DNA from: a virus
Virus record (IMG/VR): IMGVR_UViG_3300004805_000032
Span: 1-24,824 of that record
Reading direction: 5' to 3' (one strand)
DNA: 24,824 bases
A model generated the notes under the pieces. The model did no database searches, was not told the origin of the DNA, and saw only the letters and a program-made list of their open reading frames with translations. Within the stretch, counting starts at the first letter, position 1. Each line of letters opens with the position of its first letter. A program made the position numbers and the translations under genes. Positions 3,992 through 20,269 of the stretch are shown here, in pieces.

Positions 3992-4972
3992 TTATCCTTT
4001 GTTAGCGCGGTCATACGATGCGTATGCGCGGATCATCTTGTTTCGTTTATCTGTATCATCCCAAGCGCCAGCGTCTTTAATCGCTTGAACACGATCACGA
4101 CTTAACGTGATAGTATTTGGCTTTGTGCTTACGGACGAATTAGCAACACGGCTTGAGGCTGTAGGGCCACCACGTCGTGCTGGATTACCACCTTTTGCTG
4201 TGTAGCGATGTGGTAAACGTGCAGATAATCGATTATCAAGTTCAGACCAATATTCAGGGTCTGCAGGATCCCAACCGTCGGAAACCAATTCTTGGTCAAT
4301 TACTTTTGCAATTCTACTATCTGTATCTCGAGCTTCCGGATCATACCAAGAATTACGACGAACCCATTTATTAGCATTTTGTTGAATTTCTCTAGCTACT
4401 GGATTTGGTACGTTTTCTTTTGGTCGTTTTGCCGCTTCGAGTTGGTTCTTTTTATAATGCTGGATTTGTTGAACGCGTTGTTTAGCATCTGTCAACTGTT
4501 CCAAATATTCTATTTGACCCGCCGCATCTCCTGTTTGAGCTGCTTGTAACATTTTCATTTTAGCGTACTCTACTCGAGTAACTTCATCTTCTAGCGTCTT
4601 ATCAATTTGTGCTAATTGATATGATGTTTGATTGTTTTCAATTTGTGCTAGTCGTTGAGCTAATTCTTCGTTACGACGTTCAAGGGATGTAATTTTATGT
4701 TTTGATGAAGATTCGCGCTGTTTAGATAACTCTTTTTTTAATCTGCGCTCTTCACGTCGGGCTTCCCGAATTTTTTCTCGATCTTCCTCAGACTCATTAG
4801 CATCTTTGGATTGGCCCTCATTATCTTCAAATTCTTCGTCTTCCTGTCCACCGTCATTATTTTCGGTATCTAGTTCTGAATCAAACTCTTCTTGAGCGCT
4901 TTCCTCAACCTTAGCTGAGACTGTACCATCATCATGTTCCTTAATAGGAACGTCTTTTTCGTTATCTGCCAT
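3992..4972 (-). CDS. Scaffolding-like protein
   Basis: A 326-residue protein with three zones: a highly acidic N-terminus (residues about 1-65, many Glu/Asp), a long charged coiled coil (about 65-190, with repeated KKELSKQRESS/LERRNEELAQRLAQIE-type heptads), and a basic C-terminus ending NKMIRAYASYDRANKG. Acidic, coiled-coil, basic-tail architecture just upstream of the capsid gene is typical of phage scaffolding proteins, whose basic C-terminus binds capsid subunits and which leave the prohead during maturation. No protease motif is visible. The role is inferred from architecture and gene order. Confidence 0.75.
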   Translation of the reverse strand: MADNEKDVPIKEHDDGTVSAKVEESAQEEFDSELDTENNDGGQEDEEFEDNEGQSKDANESEEDREKIREARREERRLKKELSKQRESSSKHKITSLERRNEELAQRLAQIENNQTSYQLAQIDKTLEDEVTRVEYAKMKMLQAAQTGDAAGQIEYLEQLTDAKQRVQQIQHYKKNQLEAAKRPKENVPNPVAREIQQNANKWVRRNSWYDPEARDTDSRIAKVIDQELVSDGWDPADPEYWSELDNRLSARLPHRYTAKGGNPARRGGPTASSRVANSSVSTKPNTITLSRDRVQAIKDAGAWDDTDKRNKMIRAYASYDRANKG

Positions 4973-4992: not shown

Positions 4993-5436
4993 TTAATCAA
5001 CAAACGCTTTCATACGTTGTGCGTGCTCAAAAGATTTTACTTTAGAAATAATCTCTCGTGCTTGCAACGTAATGAACACAACCGGAGCGCCTTCATCACC
5101 CGCATCAACTACATAGCGATCACCGCCATATTTAATTGTGCGAACTAGGTCCCCCACCTGACACCAAGGTCCTTCGATCCATGGTGATAAATCTTCTAAG
5201 TTTTTGTATGCCAAGGGTCCAATTTGAATTACCTTAGCCACAGTCTCATTAAATTTAATGGTTTGCGTTGTCTCGTCTACTAGAATGATCCCACCTTTTG
5301 AGGTTGTTTTTTCGCGACGTAGTTGAACTAACACGCGATCGCCTAGCACTTCAATGCCCGGCTCAACACTAGGAAAACATTCTAACTCTGAACGTAAATC
5401 TGGCTCGTCCTTAGCCTTTAAATCGTATGCAGCCAT
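4993..5436 (-). CDS. GroES-like co-chaperonin
   Basis: A 147-residue protein with a Cpn10 domain from about residue 25. VLGDRVLVQLRREKTTSKGG corresponds to the GroES N-terminal strand and mobile loop; GGIIL (48-52) is the hydrophobic tripeptide region that docks on GroEL; then AKVIQIG and GDLVRTIKYGG follow the family pattern. The N-terminal 25 residues and the insertion after QIG (KNLEDLSPWIEGPW) are extra compared with the about 97-residue bacterial protein. By analogy with T4 gp31 and other phage co-chaperonins it probably works with host GroEL to fold the capsid protein, whose gene is in the same module. AAGGAG precedes the start. Confidence 0.88.
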   Translation of the reverse strand: MAAYDLKAKDEPDLRSELECFPSVEPGIEVLGDRVLVQLRREKTTSKGGIILVDETTQTIKFNETVAKVIQIGPLAYKNLEDLSPWIEGPWCQVGDLVRTIKYGGDRYVVDAGDEGAPVVFITLQAREIISKVKSFEHAQRMKAFVD

Positions 5437-12114: not shown

Positions 12115-12367
12115 GTACCCCTTTGTACCCCTTTGCAAAAAGAAGTGTGACAATCCAATGCAATCAACAATTTACAGCACAACAATGCGGGTTTGCGGCC
12201 GATTTGATGTTAGTGACCGCTAACCTGCCGACCCGCTTGTACCAAGGTTGAGTACCCCTTGTCACACTTGTCACACTTCTTTTTACTTTTTTAATTTTTT
12301 TTAATAAAATAAAAAGAGATACAAGGGAGAATAAAGTGAGAACAAGTGTGACAAGTGTGACGAAGTG
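12115..12367. repeat. Left arm of 253-bp long inverted repeat
   Basis: This 253-bp block recurs in reverse complement at 20017-20269 with the same length and, by eye, about 80% identity. It starts GTACCCCTTTGTACCCCTTTG and ends with AAGTGTGACAAGTGTGAC. Within it, iterons AAGTGTGACA lie at 12143, 12344 and 12353, with inverted copies at 12260 and 12269 flanking an A/T-rich centre. GTACCCC repeats lie at the outer end. No ORF is supported here. It may be an origin, an operator array or a recombination site. Confidence 0.9.
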
Positions 12368-12394
12368 ATTTAAATCAATGACTTACAAGCAAAG

Positions 12395-12620: not shown

Positions 12621-12692
12621 TAATGAGAATCATTCGCATCTAGGTGAGGCGCTTGATTGGTACGCTCACCTAGATGCGAATGATTCTCATTA
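12621..12692. repeat. Perfect 28-bp inverted repeat with Fur-box-like arms
   Basis: The arms 12621-12648 and 12665-12692 are exact reverse complements around a 16-nt loop. Each arm contains TGAGAATCATTCGCA, matching 11 of 14 positions of the Fur half-site pattern TGATAAT-N-ATTATCA. The structure could extrude as a cruciform, form a very stable RNA hairpin, or serve as paired operators. There is no T tract, so it is not a standard terminator. Confidence 0.8.
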
Positions 12693-13073: not shown

Positions 13074-13100
13074 TGTCACAAATGATTCACAAAACATTCA
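13074..13100 (+). promoter_or_regulatory. Upstream element of the first early promoter
   Basis: TGTCACAAA, GATTCACAAA and CATTCA follow each other at about 10-bp spacing. Nearly the same 27 bp recur at 16376-16402, in both cases upstream of a TATAAT-like box and a GTAGTAAA motif (here CATAAT at about 13130). It is probably an activator or repressor array for an early promoter that reads the first plus-strand operon. Confidence 0.5.
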
Positions 13101-13192
13101 CAGAACTGAAATAATTTAGAGGCATCGCATAATGTAGTATGAAGACTGTAGTAAAGAAGTTCCCGAAACCACCTATTTAGAGGATGCAAACC

Positions 13193-13429
13193 ATGACAAC
13201 AGTACAACAATTAATCGATGCACTACAAAAGGTCGAAGACAAAAACGGCGCAGTCGAAATCGCAGTAAGCTTTCAGGATGGATATCCAATATATGCGGAC
13301 ATTGTGCCGAATGTATGGGATAACATTTTAGTCAACAGTCCATGGGGAAGCATCCGTATTCTTGCGGATGTCAAGCCGGCATCATTGGTGACTCATTACG
13401 CAGTACGTGAGATGAAAAACAAAGCTTAA
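13193..13429 (+). CDS. Small early protein, unknown (78 aa)
   Basis: The start is MTTVQQLIDALQKVEDKNG. The earlier in-frame ATG at 13184 is part of the recurring leader GAGGATGCAAACC and is taken as ribosome-binding sequence, because the same leader precedes four other genes. The protein has an N-terminal helix, then strands, and WGSIRILADVKP. The stop TAA lies inside helix I of hammerhead ribozyme 1. No family is recognised. Confidence 0.6.
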   Translation: MTTVQQLIDALQKVEDKNGAVEIAVSFQDGYPIYADIVPNVWDNILVNSPWGSIRILADVKPASLVTHYAVREMKNKA

Positions 13430-13477
13430 CTGATGAGACCTCAATGGTCGAAACCGGCAGAGATGCCGGTCTTAAGC
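13424..13477 (+). ncRNA. Hammerhead ribozyme 1 (type I)
   Basis: The full core is present in order: helix I strand GCTTAA (13424-13429), CTGATGA (13430-13436), helix II GACC/GGTC with loop TCAAT, GAA (13450-13452), helix III ACCGGC/GCCGGT with a 6-nt loop, C17 at 13471, helix I return strand TTAAGC (13472-13477). Cleavage is expected after 13471 at a GUC triplet. All pairs are Watson-Crick. The upstream stop codon lies in helix I, and the cut falls 30 nt before the next ATG. Confidence 0.92.
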
Positions 13478-13501
13478 AAATAACCTAAAAGGATGCAAAC
13501 C

Positions 13502-13693
13502 ATGACAATACACGTAGACCACAAACCAATAGCAGTATGCTATGTCGACACAATCGGCAAGAAGCTTCGTGCCTTCTTCGGCACGGACTCAATTGACAAT
13601 GCTATGAAAATAGCAAAAGACCACAAGAGCGCATTCGGCACAATGATTGTGCTAGATGTCGCCACATCAACAATTATCGCCACAGTTAAATAG
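13502..13693 (+). CDS. Small early protein, unknown (63 aa)
   Basis: Starts MTIHVDHKPIAVCYVDTIGK after AACCTAAAAGGATGCAAACC. The ATG at 13493 inside GGATGCA is rejected for the reason given for the gene before. It is a mixed alpha/beta protein with GTMIVLDVATSTIIATVK at the end. It is the first gene behind ribozyme 1 and has a 30-nt leader after cleavage. Function unknown. Confidence 0.55.
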   Translation: MTIHVDHKPIAVCYVDTIGKKLRAFFGTDSIDNAMKIAKDHKSAFGTMIVLDVATSTIIATVK

Positions 13694-13704
13694 GACACGA
13701 CACC

Positions 13705-13932
13705 ATGAACATACAAGCAATCATCGTAAACGGCAATGACTACCACCCAATAGCGCTTAAAGACGTGAAAGCCGGCGAATTCGTAGTACGCAAAGCCGGC
13801 GCTAAAACAGTATTCACTCGAGGCGATTATGACCGTGCCTCCAAGACATACGCTCTTGACGACTACAATGAGCATTGTCGTCAGGTCTTTTTAAAAGGCT
13901 CTACCATCGTTTACATCGGTTTTTCATACTAG
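13705..13932 (+). CDS. Small early protein, unknown (75 aa)
   Basis: A mostly beta protein: MNIQAIIVNGNDYHPIALKD at the start, then GEFVVRKAGAKTVFTRGDYD and a hydrophobic end STIVYIGFSY. The pattern of strands with regularly spaced basic residues would suit a small nucleic-acid-binding or SH3-like barrel, but this is a guess. A weak site (GGACACGACACC) precedes the ATG. Confidence 0.55.
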   Translation: MNIQAIIVNGNDYHPIALKDVKAGEFVVRKAGAKTVFTRGDYDRASKTYALDDYNEHCRQVFLKGSTIVYIGFSY

Positions 13933-13943
13933 GAGGCAATACC

Positions 13944-14132
13944 ATGACAACAATCGAATTGATTAGACTCGCGACTGACGAGCTCAAAGCGGACAACGAC
14001 TGCGCCGAAGCCAAAGCCAAAGCATTGGCACAGGCACAGAGCGCTAGACTGCGTGAGAGGCACGAACGTTTAAGGGCATACCTCAACGCAACGACCGGCG
14101 TTACACTCTTCAACAAGCTTGAGATTAACTGA
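13944..14132 (+). CDS. Small helical early protein, unknown (62 aa)
   Basis: The start at 13944 is chosen because AGGAGG lies 7 nt upstream. The protein is a single long Ala/Arg/Glu-rich helix (ADNDCAEAKAKALAQAQSAR, then LRERHERLRAYL), probably a coiled coil. Its stop codon TGA (14130-14132) is part of the CTGATGA catalytic core of ribozyme 2, an unusual coding/ribozyme overlap. Function unknown. Confidence 0.6.
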   Translation: MTTIELIRLATDELKADNDCAEAKAKALAQAQSARLRERHERLRAYLNATTGVTLFNKLEIN

Positions 14133-14174
14133 TGAGACCTCAATGGTCGAAACCGACGTGAGTCGGTCTTAATC
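14123..14174 (+). ncRNA. Hammerhead ribozyme 2 (type I)
   Basis: Helix I GATTAA (14123-14128) with return TTAATC (14169-14174); core CTGATGA (14129-14135); helix II GACC/GGTC with loop TCAAT; GAA (14149-14151); helix III ACCGAC/GTCGGT with loop GTGA; C17 at 14168. Compared with ribozyme 1, helices I and III have changed on both strands while the core is identical, which is covariation. The helix I strand and half of the core overlap the end of the upstream gene. The cut is 30 nt before the next ATG. Confidence 0.92.
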
Positions 14175-14198
14175 AATAACCTATAAGGATGCAATATT

Positions 14199-14462
14199 AT
14201 GAGAATCACAGACGACACCAAACAAATCTACGGCAGAAACCAAGATTTCCATTTTTACGCATCGAATGCGATGGAATGGATGACCGGCGACGACCTTGAG
14301 AGCATAGTCAAAAAGATTCGCAAATCATCGAAGACCGGTCGATATGGCGAATTACATTTTTGGGTTTTTTACGTGCCTTTGAATATCAAAGAGGCAGAGT
14401 ACCAAATCAATAATTATGTGCCACAGGTCGACGGCATTATTTTTCTTGGCGAGTATAAATAA
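14199..14462 (+). CDS. Small early protein, unknown (87 aa)
   Basis: Starts MRITDDTKQIYGRNQDFHFY after TATAAGGATGCAATATT, the ribozyme-type leader. It is rich in aromatics (FHFYASNAMEWM, LHFWVFYVPLN) with a central helix LESIVKKIRKSSKTG, so probably a compact alpha/beta domain. No family is recognised. The gene's last bases contain the promoter of ardC. Confidence 0.55.
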   Translation: MRITDDTKQIYGRNQDFHFYASNAMEWMTGDDLESIVKKIRKSSKTGRYGELHFWVFYVPLNIKEAEYQINNYVPQVDGIIFLGEYK

Positions 14463-14473
14463 ACTGTTATAAT
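14446..14473 (+). promoter_or_regulatory. Sigma70-type promoter for ardC
   Basis: TTGGCG (14446-14451), 16-nt spacer, then TGT-TATAAT (-10 at 14468-14473 with an extended TG). Transcription would start near 14480, just before the 5' hairpin at 14483. This is the best housekeeping-type promoter seen on the plus strand. Confidence 0.6.
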
Positions 14474-14482
14474 CTTGACCTA

Positions 14483-14500
14483 GGGAGGCAGATGCCTCCC
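14483..14500 (+). promoter_or_regulatory. 5'-leader hairpin of ardC
   Basis: GGGAGGC-AGAT-GCCTCCC, a perfect 7-bp GC-rich stem. It takes the place in the gene-to-gene cassette that hammerhead ribozymes take elsewhere, directly before the common leader AACCTAAAAGGATGCAATA. It would cap the 5' end of the ardC mRNA, or act as a weak terminator of the previous unit (no T tract). Confidence 0.6.
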
Positions 14501-14525
14501 GATTAACCTAAAAGGATGCAATAAA

Positions 14526-15368
14526 ATGACAAACCAATACCAAGCAATTACAGACACCATCATCAAGGCGCTCGAGTCAGGATCAGCGCCATGGGTGAAA
14601 CCATGGAATGCGACGACATCCGGTCTCGATCGCAATGTCGTCACAGACCGTCAGTACAACGGCATTAATCGCCTATTACTCGGGATGCAAGGTCGCACGT
14701 CGCCATTGTGGGCGACGTATAACCAATGGCAATCAATCGGCGCTCAAGTACAAAAAGGCGAGAAGTCGACGACCATTGTGCTATTCAAACCGGTCAGTAA
14801 AGAGCGCACGAATAGCGACGGCGAGACCGAGGTATCATCATTCGCCATGATGAAAAGCTTTGCCGTATTCAATGCTGACCAAACAGACTACCAAGCGCCA
14901 TCCATCGAGCTCGGCGAATTCAATTCGATCGCACAATGCGAAGAGCGCATGATCAAGACCGGCGCAATAATCAATCATGGCGGCGATTCAGCATTCTATC
15001 ATCCATCGACCGATAGCATCCGACTCCCGATCCCAAGTGATTTTGAGAGCGAGGCATCATACTATGCGACGGCATTCCATGAGCTCGCTCACTGGACTGG
15101 CGCAAAACATCGCCTAGACCGTACCTTTGGCGCTCGCTTTGGCGACTCACAGTATGCGCTCGAAGAGCTCGTCGCAGAATTGACTAGCGCTTTTTTGTGT
15201 GCAGATCATCACATCGACGGAAAGCTTCAGCACACAAACTACATCGCATCATGGTTAAAAGCGCTTAAGGACGATAACCAAGCGATCTTCAAGGCATCAG
15301 CGCTCGCTCAAAAGGCATCCGATTACCTGTTGACATTGGATGTTCAAAAGCAGAAAATGGTGGCTTAA
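14526..15368 (+). CDS. ardC: ArdC-like antirestriction protein (ssDNA-binding domain + metallopeptidase-like domain)
   Basis: A 280-residue protein with two parts. Residues 1-about 130 form the DUF1738/ArdC N-terminal domain that binds single-stranded DNA, with the usual SAPWVKPW and YNGINRLLL motifs (19-27, 44-52) and the YNQWQSIGAQVQKGEKST segment. Residues about 150-280 are a zincin-like domain with HELAH at 185-189, HRLDR and EELVAEL (213-219, likely third ligand). ArdC proteins of plasmids and phages protect incoming DNA against restriction enzymes, and their peptidase motif is conserved. The gene has its own promoter and 5' hairpin, and ribozyme 3 follows its stop by 4 nt. Early expression fits a role in the first minutes of infection. 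Confidence 0.9.
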   Translation: MTNQYQAITDTIIKALESGSAPWVKPWNATTSGLDRNVVTDRQYNGINRLLLGMQGRTSPLWATYNQWQSIGAQVQKGEKSTTIVLFKPVSKERTNSDGETEVSSFAMMKSFAVFNADQTDYQAPSIELGEFNSIAQCEERMIKTGAIINHGGDSAFYHPSTDSIRLPIPSDFESEASYYATAFHELAHWTGAKHRLDRTFGARFGDSQYALEELVAELTSAFLCADHHIDGKLQHTNYIASWLKALKDDNQAIFKASALAQKASDYLLTLDVQKQKMVA

Positions 15369-15372
15369 ATCA

Positions 15373-15424
15373 GTCGTACTGACGATCGCTGAATGCGTGA
15401 AACCGGCATCTGCCGGTATACGAC
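15373..15424 (+). ncRNA. Hammerhead ribozyme 3 (type I, variant)
   Basis: Helix I GTCGTA (15373-15378) with return TACGAC (15419-15424), again perfectly paired but of new sequence; core CTGACGA (15379-15385), differing only at the tolerant position 7; helix II CGC/GCG with loop TGAAT but a U-U mismatch next to the core; GAA (15399-15401); helix III ACCGGC/GCCGGT with loop ATCT; A17 at 15418 (GUA triplet). It should cleave after 15418, 28 nt before the next ATG. The helix II mismatch may slow it. Confidence 0.82.
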
Positions 15425-15446
15425 AAACCTAAAAGGATGCAATACC

Positions 15447-16082
15447 ATGACAATAACATCAGTAATTCAATTCGTACCAAAGCTTTCAAAACCAAAAAAG
15501 ATGCCGTGCCACACGTTTAGTACTCCAGCACAGGCATGTATCACAGGATCAAAACTCGCCAAGGTCAAGGGATCAGTTTGTTTCGACTGCTATGCTAAAA
15601 AAGGCAATTATCATTTCCCTAATGTGAAAGCGCCTCGAGTCCATAATCTTGGACTTATTCAGTCCGATCTAGTCGCATGGTCAGCATCGATGATCGAGTC
15701 CATCCGTACCAATGAAAAGACCGGTTTCTTTAGGTGGCACGATTCCGGCGACCTACAAAGCTTTGATCATTTAATCGCCATCATCAGCATTGCCAATGCA
15801 TTGCCACAGATCAAATTTTGGATTCCTACCAAAGAGAAGGCATTCATTGCCAAGCTTAAGCGCTCTGATATCAGCGTGCCGGCAAATTTAGCGATCCGCC
15901 TATCGATGCCAATGGTCGACCAAGCGCCGATCACATCGACATGGGCGCTCACATCCACAGTACACCAAAAAGCAGAGGCATTCGGCATGTCGTGCAATGC
16001 GTACCAAAACGACGGCAAGTGTGGTGTCTGCCGTGCATGTTGGAATACAGACATCGCCAATATCTCATATCCAAAACACTAA
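15447..16082 (+). CDS. GP88-like cysteine-rich phage protein
   Basis: A 211-residue protein. The start at 15447 follows the common leader CCTAAAAGGATGCAATACC. Eight cysteines lie at 21, 31, 45, 48, 183, 192, 195 and 198, in the patterns CFDCYAKKGNY and CGVCRACW, with RWHDSGDLQS at 96-105 between them. This layout matches the phage family known as GP88, whose function is not established. The Cys groups could bind zinc or an iron-sulfur cluster. It follows ardC and ribozyme 3 and precedes the tiny-gene run. Assignment to GP88 is from pattern memory. Confidence 0.65.
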   Translation: MTITSVIQFVPKLSKPKKMPCHTFSTPAQACITGSKLAKVKGSVCFDCYAKKGNYHFPNVKAPRVHNLGLIQSDLVAWSASMIESIRTNEKTGFFRWHDSGDLQSFDHLIAIISIANALPQIKFWIPTKEKAFIAKLKRSDISVPANLAIRLSMPMVDQAPITSTWALTSTVHQKAEAFGMSCNAYQNDGKCGVCRACWNTDIANISYPKH

Positions 16083-16096
16083 TCGGAGGCATCAAA

Positions 16097-16375
16097 ATGA
16101 AAGCTTATAAAGACCTAGTACAGTACGCATTAAAAAACAATGATACTGTTTCAGTATATGACGGCGAAGAATGGGCAGTACGGCGCTCGGCATCATTCCA
16201 AGAGATCATCGATGCAATTGAGTCCGTCGAGGAGGCAGAATTACGCATCCGAGATCTTGATGGTAATAGCAAGGCATGGGCGCTGATCGTGCATGATACC
16301 GGTGAGGACGAACACGTCGCAGACCACACAGACAATGTGTACATGGATGGATGGTCTGAACAGTACTTCAAATAG
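16097..16375 (+). CDS. Small acidic early protein, unknown (92 aa)
   Basis: Start at 16097 after GGAGGCATCAAA. It is acidic, with N-terminal helix MKAYKDLVQYALKNNDTVSV, then FQEIIDAIESVEEAELRIRD and a C-terminal part with a Trp (SKAWALIVHDTG). It ends 1 bp before a regulatory array and promoter, so it closes the first early operon. Function unknown. Confidence 0.6.
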   Translation: MKAYKDLVQYALKNNDTVSVYDGEEWAVRRSASFQEIIDAIESVEEAELRIRDLDGNSKAWALIVHDTGEDEHVADHTDNVYMDGWSEQYFK

Positions 16376-16429
16376 TGTCACAAAACATTCACAAAAGATT
16401 CATACTCGGACTGACCATCCGAGTATAAT
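16376..16429 (+). promoter_or_regulatory. Second early promoter with operator-like hairpin
   Basis: A 27-bp array like that at 13074 is followed by inverted repeat ATACTCGG/CCGAGTAT (16402-16426, 9-nt loop). Its right arm overlaps a perfect TATAAT (16424-16429). The -35 box is poor (CATACT), suggesting activator dependence or repression through the inverted repeat. The mRNA would begin the long tiny-gene operon at 16468. Confidence 0.6.
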
Positions 16430-16467
16430 TAGTAGTGTAGTAAATCAATTAACTCAAGGAGATTCAA

Positions 16468-16728
16468 ATGGATTTAAGTAAATTTGTAGAGCAGTCAAAT
16501 GGTAAGTTCGTCACGGTCGAGTTCATCAAAAAAGATGGCTCACTGCGTAAGATTAATGGTCGTCTTGGTGTGACATCAGCGCTCAAGGGAGGCAAGAGCA
16601 CACTAGATGCTAATCAATACATCACGATCTATAGCATGGCAGATCAGGGATATCGTGCGATCAACAAGGACACCATCCAATCGGTCAGCATCGAGGGTGT
16701 GATGATGGTTAAAAAGGGAGGCAAGTAA
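16468..16728 (+). CDS. Small beta-barrel-like protein, unknown (86 aa)
   Basis: First gene of the second early operon, with AAGGAGA 6 nt before the ATG. The segment FVTVEFIKKDGSLRKINGRL, then YITIYSMADQGYRAINKDTI and VSIEGVMM, looks like an SH3-like or Sm-like small barrel with a basic C-terminus (KKGGK). Such folds often bind nucleic acid. That is inference; the family is not recognised. Confidence 0.6.
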   Translation: MDLSKFVEQSNGKFVTVEFIKKDGSLRKINGRLGVTSALKGGKSTLDANQYITIYSMADQGYRAINKDTIQSVSIEGVMMVKKGGK

Positions 16729-19940: not shown

Positions 19941-20016
19941 ATATATAGCAATGTTTGTTTTGTTATACTTATTAGTTATATATTTGGCAGTTGTTATAAT
20001 TAATTTTTTAATTTGA
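19933..20016 (+). CDS. Possible membrane peptide (27 aa, TTG start)
   Basis: TTG at 19933 with AAGGA 8 nt upstream opens a 27-residue frame that is almost wholly hydrophobic (KYIAMFVLLYLLVIYLAVVI) and ends at the edge of the right repeat arm. An internal ATG at 19951 would give 21 residues. It resembles other one-span peptides of this module. The A/T-rich context makes chance possible. Confidence 0.35.
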   Translation: MIKYIAMFVLLYLLVIYLAVVIINFLI

Positions 20017-20269
20017 GTACCACTTGTCACACTTGTCACACTTAAATTCACTTTATCTCTATATCTCTTTTTCTTTTTCTTATTTTAAATTAAAAAAGAG
20101 AAAAGAAGTGGTACAAGTGTGACAAGGGGTACACGACCTTGGTGCAAGCCGGTCAAAATGATAGTAGTCACTAACATCAAATCGGGCTAAAACCCGCATT
20201 GATACGCTGTAAGATGTTGATTACATTGGATTGTACCACTTCTTTTTGCAAAGGGGTACAAAGGGGTAC
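20017..20269. repeat. Right arm of 253-bp long inverted repeat
   Basis: Reverse complement of 12115-12367, same length. Here several iterons have changed together from AAGTGTGACA to AAGTGGTACA (20106 and inverted at 20016 and 20232), while AAGTGTGACA is kept at 20115 and inverted at 20025 and 20034. AAGGGGTACA/T occurs at 20124, 20251 and 20261. The centre is A/T-rich, and a short CGGG/CCCG hairpin lies near 20183. It separates the sigma operon from the primase operon. No gene is supported within it. Confidence 0.9.

Follow-up and report, generated by a model that had tools for sequence, protein, structure and literature searches.

The window, a 24.8-kb virus contig that encodes terminase, portal-like, capsid, primase and sigma-factor genes, carries three hammerhead ribozymes on the coding strand of one gene block, each between intact genes (Table 1). 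The last of them, HH3, is 52 nt long and lies between ardC, whose stop codon (15366-15368) ends 4 nt 5' of it, and a gene of the GP88 family. In the other two copies an upstream stop lies within the element itself: a TAA inside helix I of HH1, and in HH2 the TGA of the core (14130-14132), which terminates an upstream ORF. A DNA similarity search of 13100-16500 against phage and plasmid records returned no phage match, only a piece of traC from three plasmids.

Table 1. Coordinates of HH3, its parts and its surroundings in the window.
Feature	Position	Strand	Basis or remark
HH3, type I hammerhead ribozyme, U10.1-U11.1/A17 subtype	15373..15424	+	direct sequence; full geometry by scanner; MFE fold
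HH3 helix I, 5' strand GTCGTA	15373..15378	+	six perfect pairs with 15419-15424
HH3 core CTGACGA (C3-A9)	15379..15385	+	sequence; C at position 7
HH3 helix II, TCGC-TGAAT-GCGT	15386..15398	+	U.U 15386/15398 (10.1/11.1), pairs CGC/GCG, pentaloop UGAAU
HH3 core GAAA (G12-A15.1)	15399..15402	+	sequence
HH3 helix III hairpin, CCGGCA-TC-TGCCGG	15403..15416	+	sequence
HH3 U16.1 and A17	15417..15418	+	predicted cut 15418/15419, by hammerhead homology
HH3 helix I, 3' strand TACGAC	15419..15424	+	predicted 5' end of downstream RNA
A2.7, base 5' of HH3 helix I	15372	+	A in 271/271 elements with UNNNU loop II (among the matches listed)
A1.7, seventh base past the cut	15425	+	proposed tertiary contact with U of loop II
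ardC (ArdcN and zincin-like metallopeptidase)	14526..15368	+	Pfam PF08401 3e-35, PF18818 7e-47; PHROG 7245 anti-restriction protein
GP88-family downstream gene	15447..16082	+	Pfam PF17338 1e-26; ATG 28 nt past the predicted cut
Leader TAAAAGGATG, likely ribosome-binding site AAAGGA	15430..15439	+	sequence; common to the other two junctions
HH1, first hammerhead (G10.1-C11.1, C17)	13424..13477	+	predicted cut 13471/13472
HH2, second hammerhead (G10.1-C11.1, C17)	14123..14174	+	predicted cut 14168/14169

Several other structured elements occur in this region. Ahead of ardC, at 14446-14500, lies a promoter-like site in which TTGGCG is separated by 16 nt from a TATAAT with TG (extended -10), followed by a bare hairpin, GGGAGGCAGATGCCTCCC (14483-14500), at the place where other junctions carry a hammerhead; it has no hammerhead core. 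Promoter hexamers and hairpin are identical in the nearest related contig found (L003) and, as promoter matches in the region are at shuffle level (8 versus 6.6), it is conservation that backs the promoter-like site. AT-rich inverted repeats with TTGTCACACTTGTCACACTT-like arms (12251-12370 and 20011-20138) flank the gene block on both sides and are perhaps replication-origin repeats, and a long palindrome, CGCATCTAGGTGAGG...CCTAGATGCG (12622-12691), is retained with changes in L003 (about 1825-1900). Rfam matches to microRNAs and snoRNAs in the window fall far below gathering on AT-rich or palindromic inverted repeats, and were set aside as chance.

The hammerhead is the best-studied small ribozyme, and HH3 has its type I form, with three helices around a CUGANGA...GAAA...UH core and helix I as the open end; its cleavage triplet is GUA (15416-15418). 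The initial annotation had recognized a third hammerhead after ardC, with a helix I unlike those of the other two. The sequence and the complete scanner geometry confirm this and place the element in type I, and the annotation's description of a CTGACGA core, a GUA site, a perfect GTCGTA/TACGAC helix and a U.U mismatch beside the core is accurate in each particular. All core bases are intact except that the base of helix II has U.U (15386/15398) in place of G10.1-C11.1 and, with A at 15418, this makes HH3 a member of a U.U and A17 subtype. The G10.1-C11.1 pair is a strong preference rather than a defining feature, as natural U.U hammerheads have been reported.

For the 52 nt alone, the minimum free energy (MFE) structure is that of a hammerhead (-17.9 kcal/mol, z = -2.8), a value equalled by 2 of 200 shuffles. 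When 40 nt of flank are included, thermodynamic folding gives helix I a probability of 0.05, and the MFE is 1.1 kcal/mol lower than the energy of the hammerhead fold; the corresponding values for the canonical HH2 in its context are 0.03 and 1.0 kcal/mol. Context folding is thus uninformative as evidence of misfolding, as canonical elements fare equally badly. The bare pattern of core and GAAA is not significant, with 4 matches versus 1.77 expected. Our full-geometry scanner, which demands three helices and the core, with at least 4 contiguous pairs in helix I, finds at least 393 distinct elements in 4.96 Mb of loci versus 1 in the same loci reversed, which shows that its false positives are rare; these loci were mostly fetched for the core motif, so that the density of elements is not a genome-wide rate. 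The Rfam model RF00163 (Hammerhead_1) shares the type I topology and core, yet copies of the family score below its gathering threshold: HH1 matches it end to end in a scan of the window at 26.7 bits (E 0.011; gathering score 34), and HH2 reaches 20.4 bits in a single-record search, while the same window scan does not list HH3 at E<=1. Across 12 sources rich in these elements, one hammerhead is found by Rfam at the gathering threshold.

The scanned elements come from pattern searches of IMG/VR that fixed the core, parts of helix II and GAAA (one scan also part of helix III), and that left helix I, residue 17 and the flanks free. They form a compact phage type I family, to which HH3 belongs by its TCA-GTCGTA...TACGAC-AAA frame, UGAAU loop, 6-bp helix I and A2.7/A1.7 flanks. 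Among the matches listed, helix I is exactly 6 bp in 251/261 elements, an ATG-initiated ORF lies at most 60 nt downstream in 226/261 (versus 23 antisense and 80 random same-strand sites), the upstream stop codon lies 5' of the predicted cut in 329/331, and all 85 multi-element loci have their copies on one strand. Since the elements are intergenic and the upstream stops lie 5' of the cut, reading frames would stay whole after cleavage. The upstream stop ends within the ribozyme (at the edge of helix I, in the core, in helix II or later) in 210 of the 331 cases and before it in 121, again among the matches listed; in 60/331 of these matches it ends in the core, and sometimes it is the UGA of the invariant core itself.

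Loci with compact type I elements also hold 29 distinct type III hammerheads (L064, L069, L071, L081, L085, L153, L302 and L452 are among these loci), with 0 in the reversed control, and three elements (L228:3125-3177, L266:223-274 and L280:9867-9919) have an additional U after A9, ahead of a normal, G-C-based helix II, with C17 kept. Three multi-hammerhead loci have zero DNA matches among 50,697 phage records, and no cultured phage with the compact family was found on that account. By scanner, five phage records (partial stretches, picked by similarity of terminase or ArdC) hold no type I element, and a pattern scan of genome contigs gave 12 stretches, none of which was a complete type I hammerhead in a first pass.

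The U.U pair turns out to be tied to the identity of the residue at the cleavage site. Among the matches listed, A17 is present in 40/40 U.U elements and in 40/343 G-C elements, having been seen in 18/18 U.U elements versus 31/243 others in the first set. In a tighter scan for U.U the counts were 32/32 versus 40/349 among the matches listed, with a Fisher p of 7e-27 that overstates independence, because the ribozymes may share ancestry though their neighbouring genes differ, and gene-cluster counts are fairer. By this measure the listed U.U elements adjoin 28 downstream-gene and 35 upstream-gene clusters, both made by blastp (the gene clusters of the earlier 261-element set may rest on blastn). 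The association was replicated in a class little sampled before, that of GNRA-type loops II, by a scan that left residue 17 and the helices free: A17 occurs in 8/8 U.U versus 2/61 G-C elements. The single type III element with U.U has A17 too. The relation is one-way among the matches listed, as A17 does occur with G-C but C17 with U.U was not seen, and 16 of 39 listed U.U loci also contain a G-C element, as the window does. The helix I pairs of U.U elements are all canonical, with two to five pair types per position (at least 4 contiguous pairs being demanded), and C15.2-G16.2 is relaxed, being C-G in 23/39 versus 318/328 among the matches listed. In the established hammerhead structure, A9 and the N7 of G10.1 together form a metal site close to the scissile phosphate. 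As a U has no such N7, U.U with A17 could be an alternative active-site solution, in which the altered residue 17 may compensate for the missing N7 in metal binding.

Against this background the core of HH3, which had been called unusual, is so in its U.U pair and not in C7 or GUA, both of which are normal in the family: CTGACGA is found in 131/367 elements with a helix I of at least 6 bp (among the matches listed), and the family counts rule out both features as signs of divergence. The accompanying proposal that the motif has drifted, and is hence slow or conditional, finds no support, given that C7 is ordinary, A17 is allowed, and U.U recurs with intact helices and a fixed partner base. HH3 may nonetheless cleave more slowly.

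A second coupling links loop II to the bases that flank helix I. When loop II is UNNNU, both flanking bases are A (A2.7 and A1.7) in 271/271 cases, and when it is GNRA, base 1.7 is U in 66/69 (59/62 before the last scan), both among the matches listed. Helix I is flanked by an A at either end in almost every element of the first set; a U takes both places in seven, whose loop II is of another kind. From these seven cases and an engineered minimal hammerhead we predicted that GNRA-loop elements have U1.7, which a scan selecting on loop II alone bore out among the matches listed. Both couplings recurred in scans that did not select for them. HH3 belongs to the A/UNAAU class, with A15372, A15425 and the loop UGAAU. 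The covariation supports a putative contact of base 1.7 with loop II; HH3 has no classical helix I internal loop, and its speed would thus rest on this single contact. Considering both couplings jointly, we find it probable that U10.1-U11.1 is tolerated only with A17, as a distinct active-site solution that couples the base of helix II to the cleavage nucleotide directly or through a metal, and that two single-base locks (A1.7/UNAAU and U1.7/GNRA) are interchangeable in this family.

The nearest relative, L003, has an ArdC 88% identical to that of the window and an element (2814-2867) that retains CTGACGA, U.U and GUA (A17), while its helix I reads GTCATA/TATGAC; relative to HH3, a G-C pair has become A-U by changes on both strands. 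The initial annotation had proposed looking for compensation of this kind among related phages. The helix III loop of the L003 element is longer than that of HH3 (AGAGAT region), and the element precedes a different gene. There is no hammerhead in L003 after ardC, nor before the counterpart of the gene that follows HH2. A hammerhead at the HH3 junction is thus not essential in L003 and, as the junctions of the two contigs differ, copies are gained and lost junction by junction. A canonical element also follows an ArdC relative (57% identical) in L008/L009. The helix II string of HH3 recurs with other helices I and III in L230, L232 and L441, and a near-identical one with a UAAAU loop is found in L003, L127, L167 and L448. 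After ardC and a later gene, L003 has two similar, structured-looking spacers (TTAATCGATCG...ATCGGTATT..., at 4271-4365 and about 5112-5190), possibly another RNA motif at the type of junction where the window has HH3.

We consider it quite likely that HH3 acts as a compact type I hammerhead whose self-cleavage splits the polycistronic phage mRNA between ardC and the GP88-family gene. Its structure, recurrence and position are observed; that it cleaves in the cell we infer from the family it belongs to and from experiments on other phage hammerheads that occur in clusters: those of prophages cleave in vitro, and a triple flanking ardA also does so in E. coli (PMC3088659). The active fold would be held by one contact across helices I and II, between A1.7 (15425) and a U of the UNAAU loop. 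A cut at 15418/15419 would give the ardC mRNA a 3' end with the helix III hairpin and a terminal 2',3'-cyclic phosphate, and the downstream GP88 mRNA would start with a 5'-hydroxyl and retain its ribosome-binding site; with both reading frames intact, the two could have separate lifetimes. Together, the cuts of HH1, HH2 and HH3 would release RNAs of ∼697 nt (13472-14168) and ∼1250 nt (14169-15418, with ardC and its neighbour).

HH3 could instead be a decaying relic that has lost G10.1-C11.1 and is inactive or nearly so, given that few hammerhead pairs are as strongly conserved as 10.1-11.1 (PMC3088659) and that HH1 and HH2 keep G-C. We regard this as very improbable: the other core bases are intact, L003 has the same variant with a compensatory change, and 40 U.U elements among the matches listed have paired helices and invariably A17, whereas neither the fixed partner base nor the conservation of A2.7 and A1.7 would arise by decay. 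In another reading, catalysis is incidental, and the main role of HH3 is to stabilise the upstream mRNA as a 3' hairpin or spacer. The core-less hairpin GGGAGGCAGATGCCTCCC in the ardC leader, shared with L003, would fit such a role, but the catalytic core, the UH cleavage site and the contact of flank and loop are conserved far more than a hairpin would need, and we give this reading very little credence.

More weight, though still in the range of the unlikely, goes to a gated ribozyme, in which ribosomes terminating at the ardC stop hold helix I open and cleavage reports on upstream translation. A ribosome at a stop codon occupies some 12-15 nt on the 3' side, and the ardC stop is 4 nt from HH3; across the family, upstream stops end inside the ribozyme in the 210/331 listed matches noted above. 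Gene and signal overlaps are, on the other hand, usual in compact phage genomes, and the stop positions vary widely. The presence of several same-strand hammerheads per locus might also suggest that pairs of them cut out stretches of RNA for circularisation or ligation, as happens in viroids and retrozymes; this is extremely improbable, as what lies between the elements codes for proteins, with proper start and stop codons, and spliced or circular products of clustered hammerheads have been sought and none detected (PMC3088659).

HH3 as an intercistronic self-cleaving element has precedents. Phage hammerhead clusters, one of them beside ardA, and natural U.U variants are already known, and mRNA processing has been proposed as the role of clustered prophage hammerheads (PMC3088659). 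The closest counterpart is the Agrobacterium tumefaciens ardA triple of Perreault et al. 2011 (PMC3088659), likewise with multiple intergenic hammerheads per phage transcript, one of them by an anti-restriction gene; the phage studied here differs in having ardC (PF08401) rather than ardA, and in that all its elements are type I, with an open helix I of exactly 6 bp, a 4-position helix II and the coupling of loop II to the flanks. Natural stems II starting with U10.1-U11.1 were reported in the same study, and its text on Figure 5 describes U.U at the base of stem II, as in HH3; earlier work, as cited there, found more cleavage with U10.1-U11.1 than with any other mispair. The main text of that paper is silent on A17 or C17, whereas here U.U is tied to A17 in two loop classes and one type III element. 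In the engineered minimal hammerhead of O'Rourke, Estell and Scott 2015, as far as it is described in PMC9217987, U1.7 makes a trans-Hoogsteen pair with an A of the GUGA tetraloop, so that with the same 6-bp helix I a base seven nt past the cut touches loop II. The natural phage elements have this arrangement (U1.7/GNRA) as well as a swapped version (A1.7/UNAAU), the latter in HH3. In the literature searched, outside which most subscription journals lay, we found neither the U.U/A17 rule nor the two natural flank/loop locks described, nor the compact family as such.

A natural coupling between a helix II pair and the base at the cleavage site constitutes a new, testable constraint on the active site, beside the A9/G10.1 metal site. 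The coupling of loop II to the flank suggests that phages use the one-contact minimal hammerhead made in the laboratory, together with a swapped version of it, and a single contact of this kind may explain how type I elements of ∼50 nt without a helix I internal loop could work at cellular magnesium. As viral contigs hold hundreds of these elements, frequently more than one to a transcript and for the most part below the Rfam cut-off, our results suggest that intergenic self-cleavage is common in phage mRNA processing.
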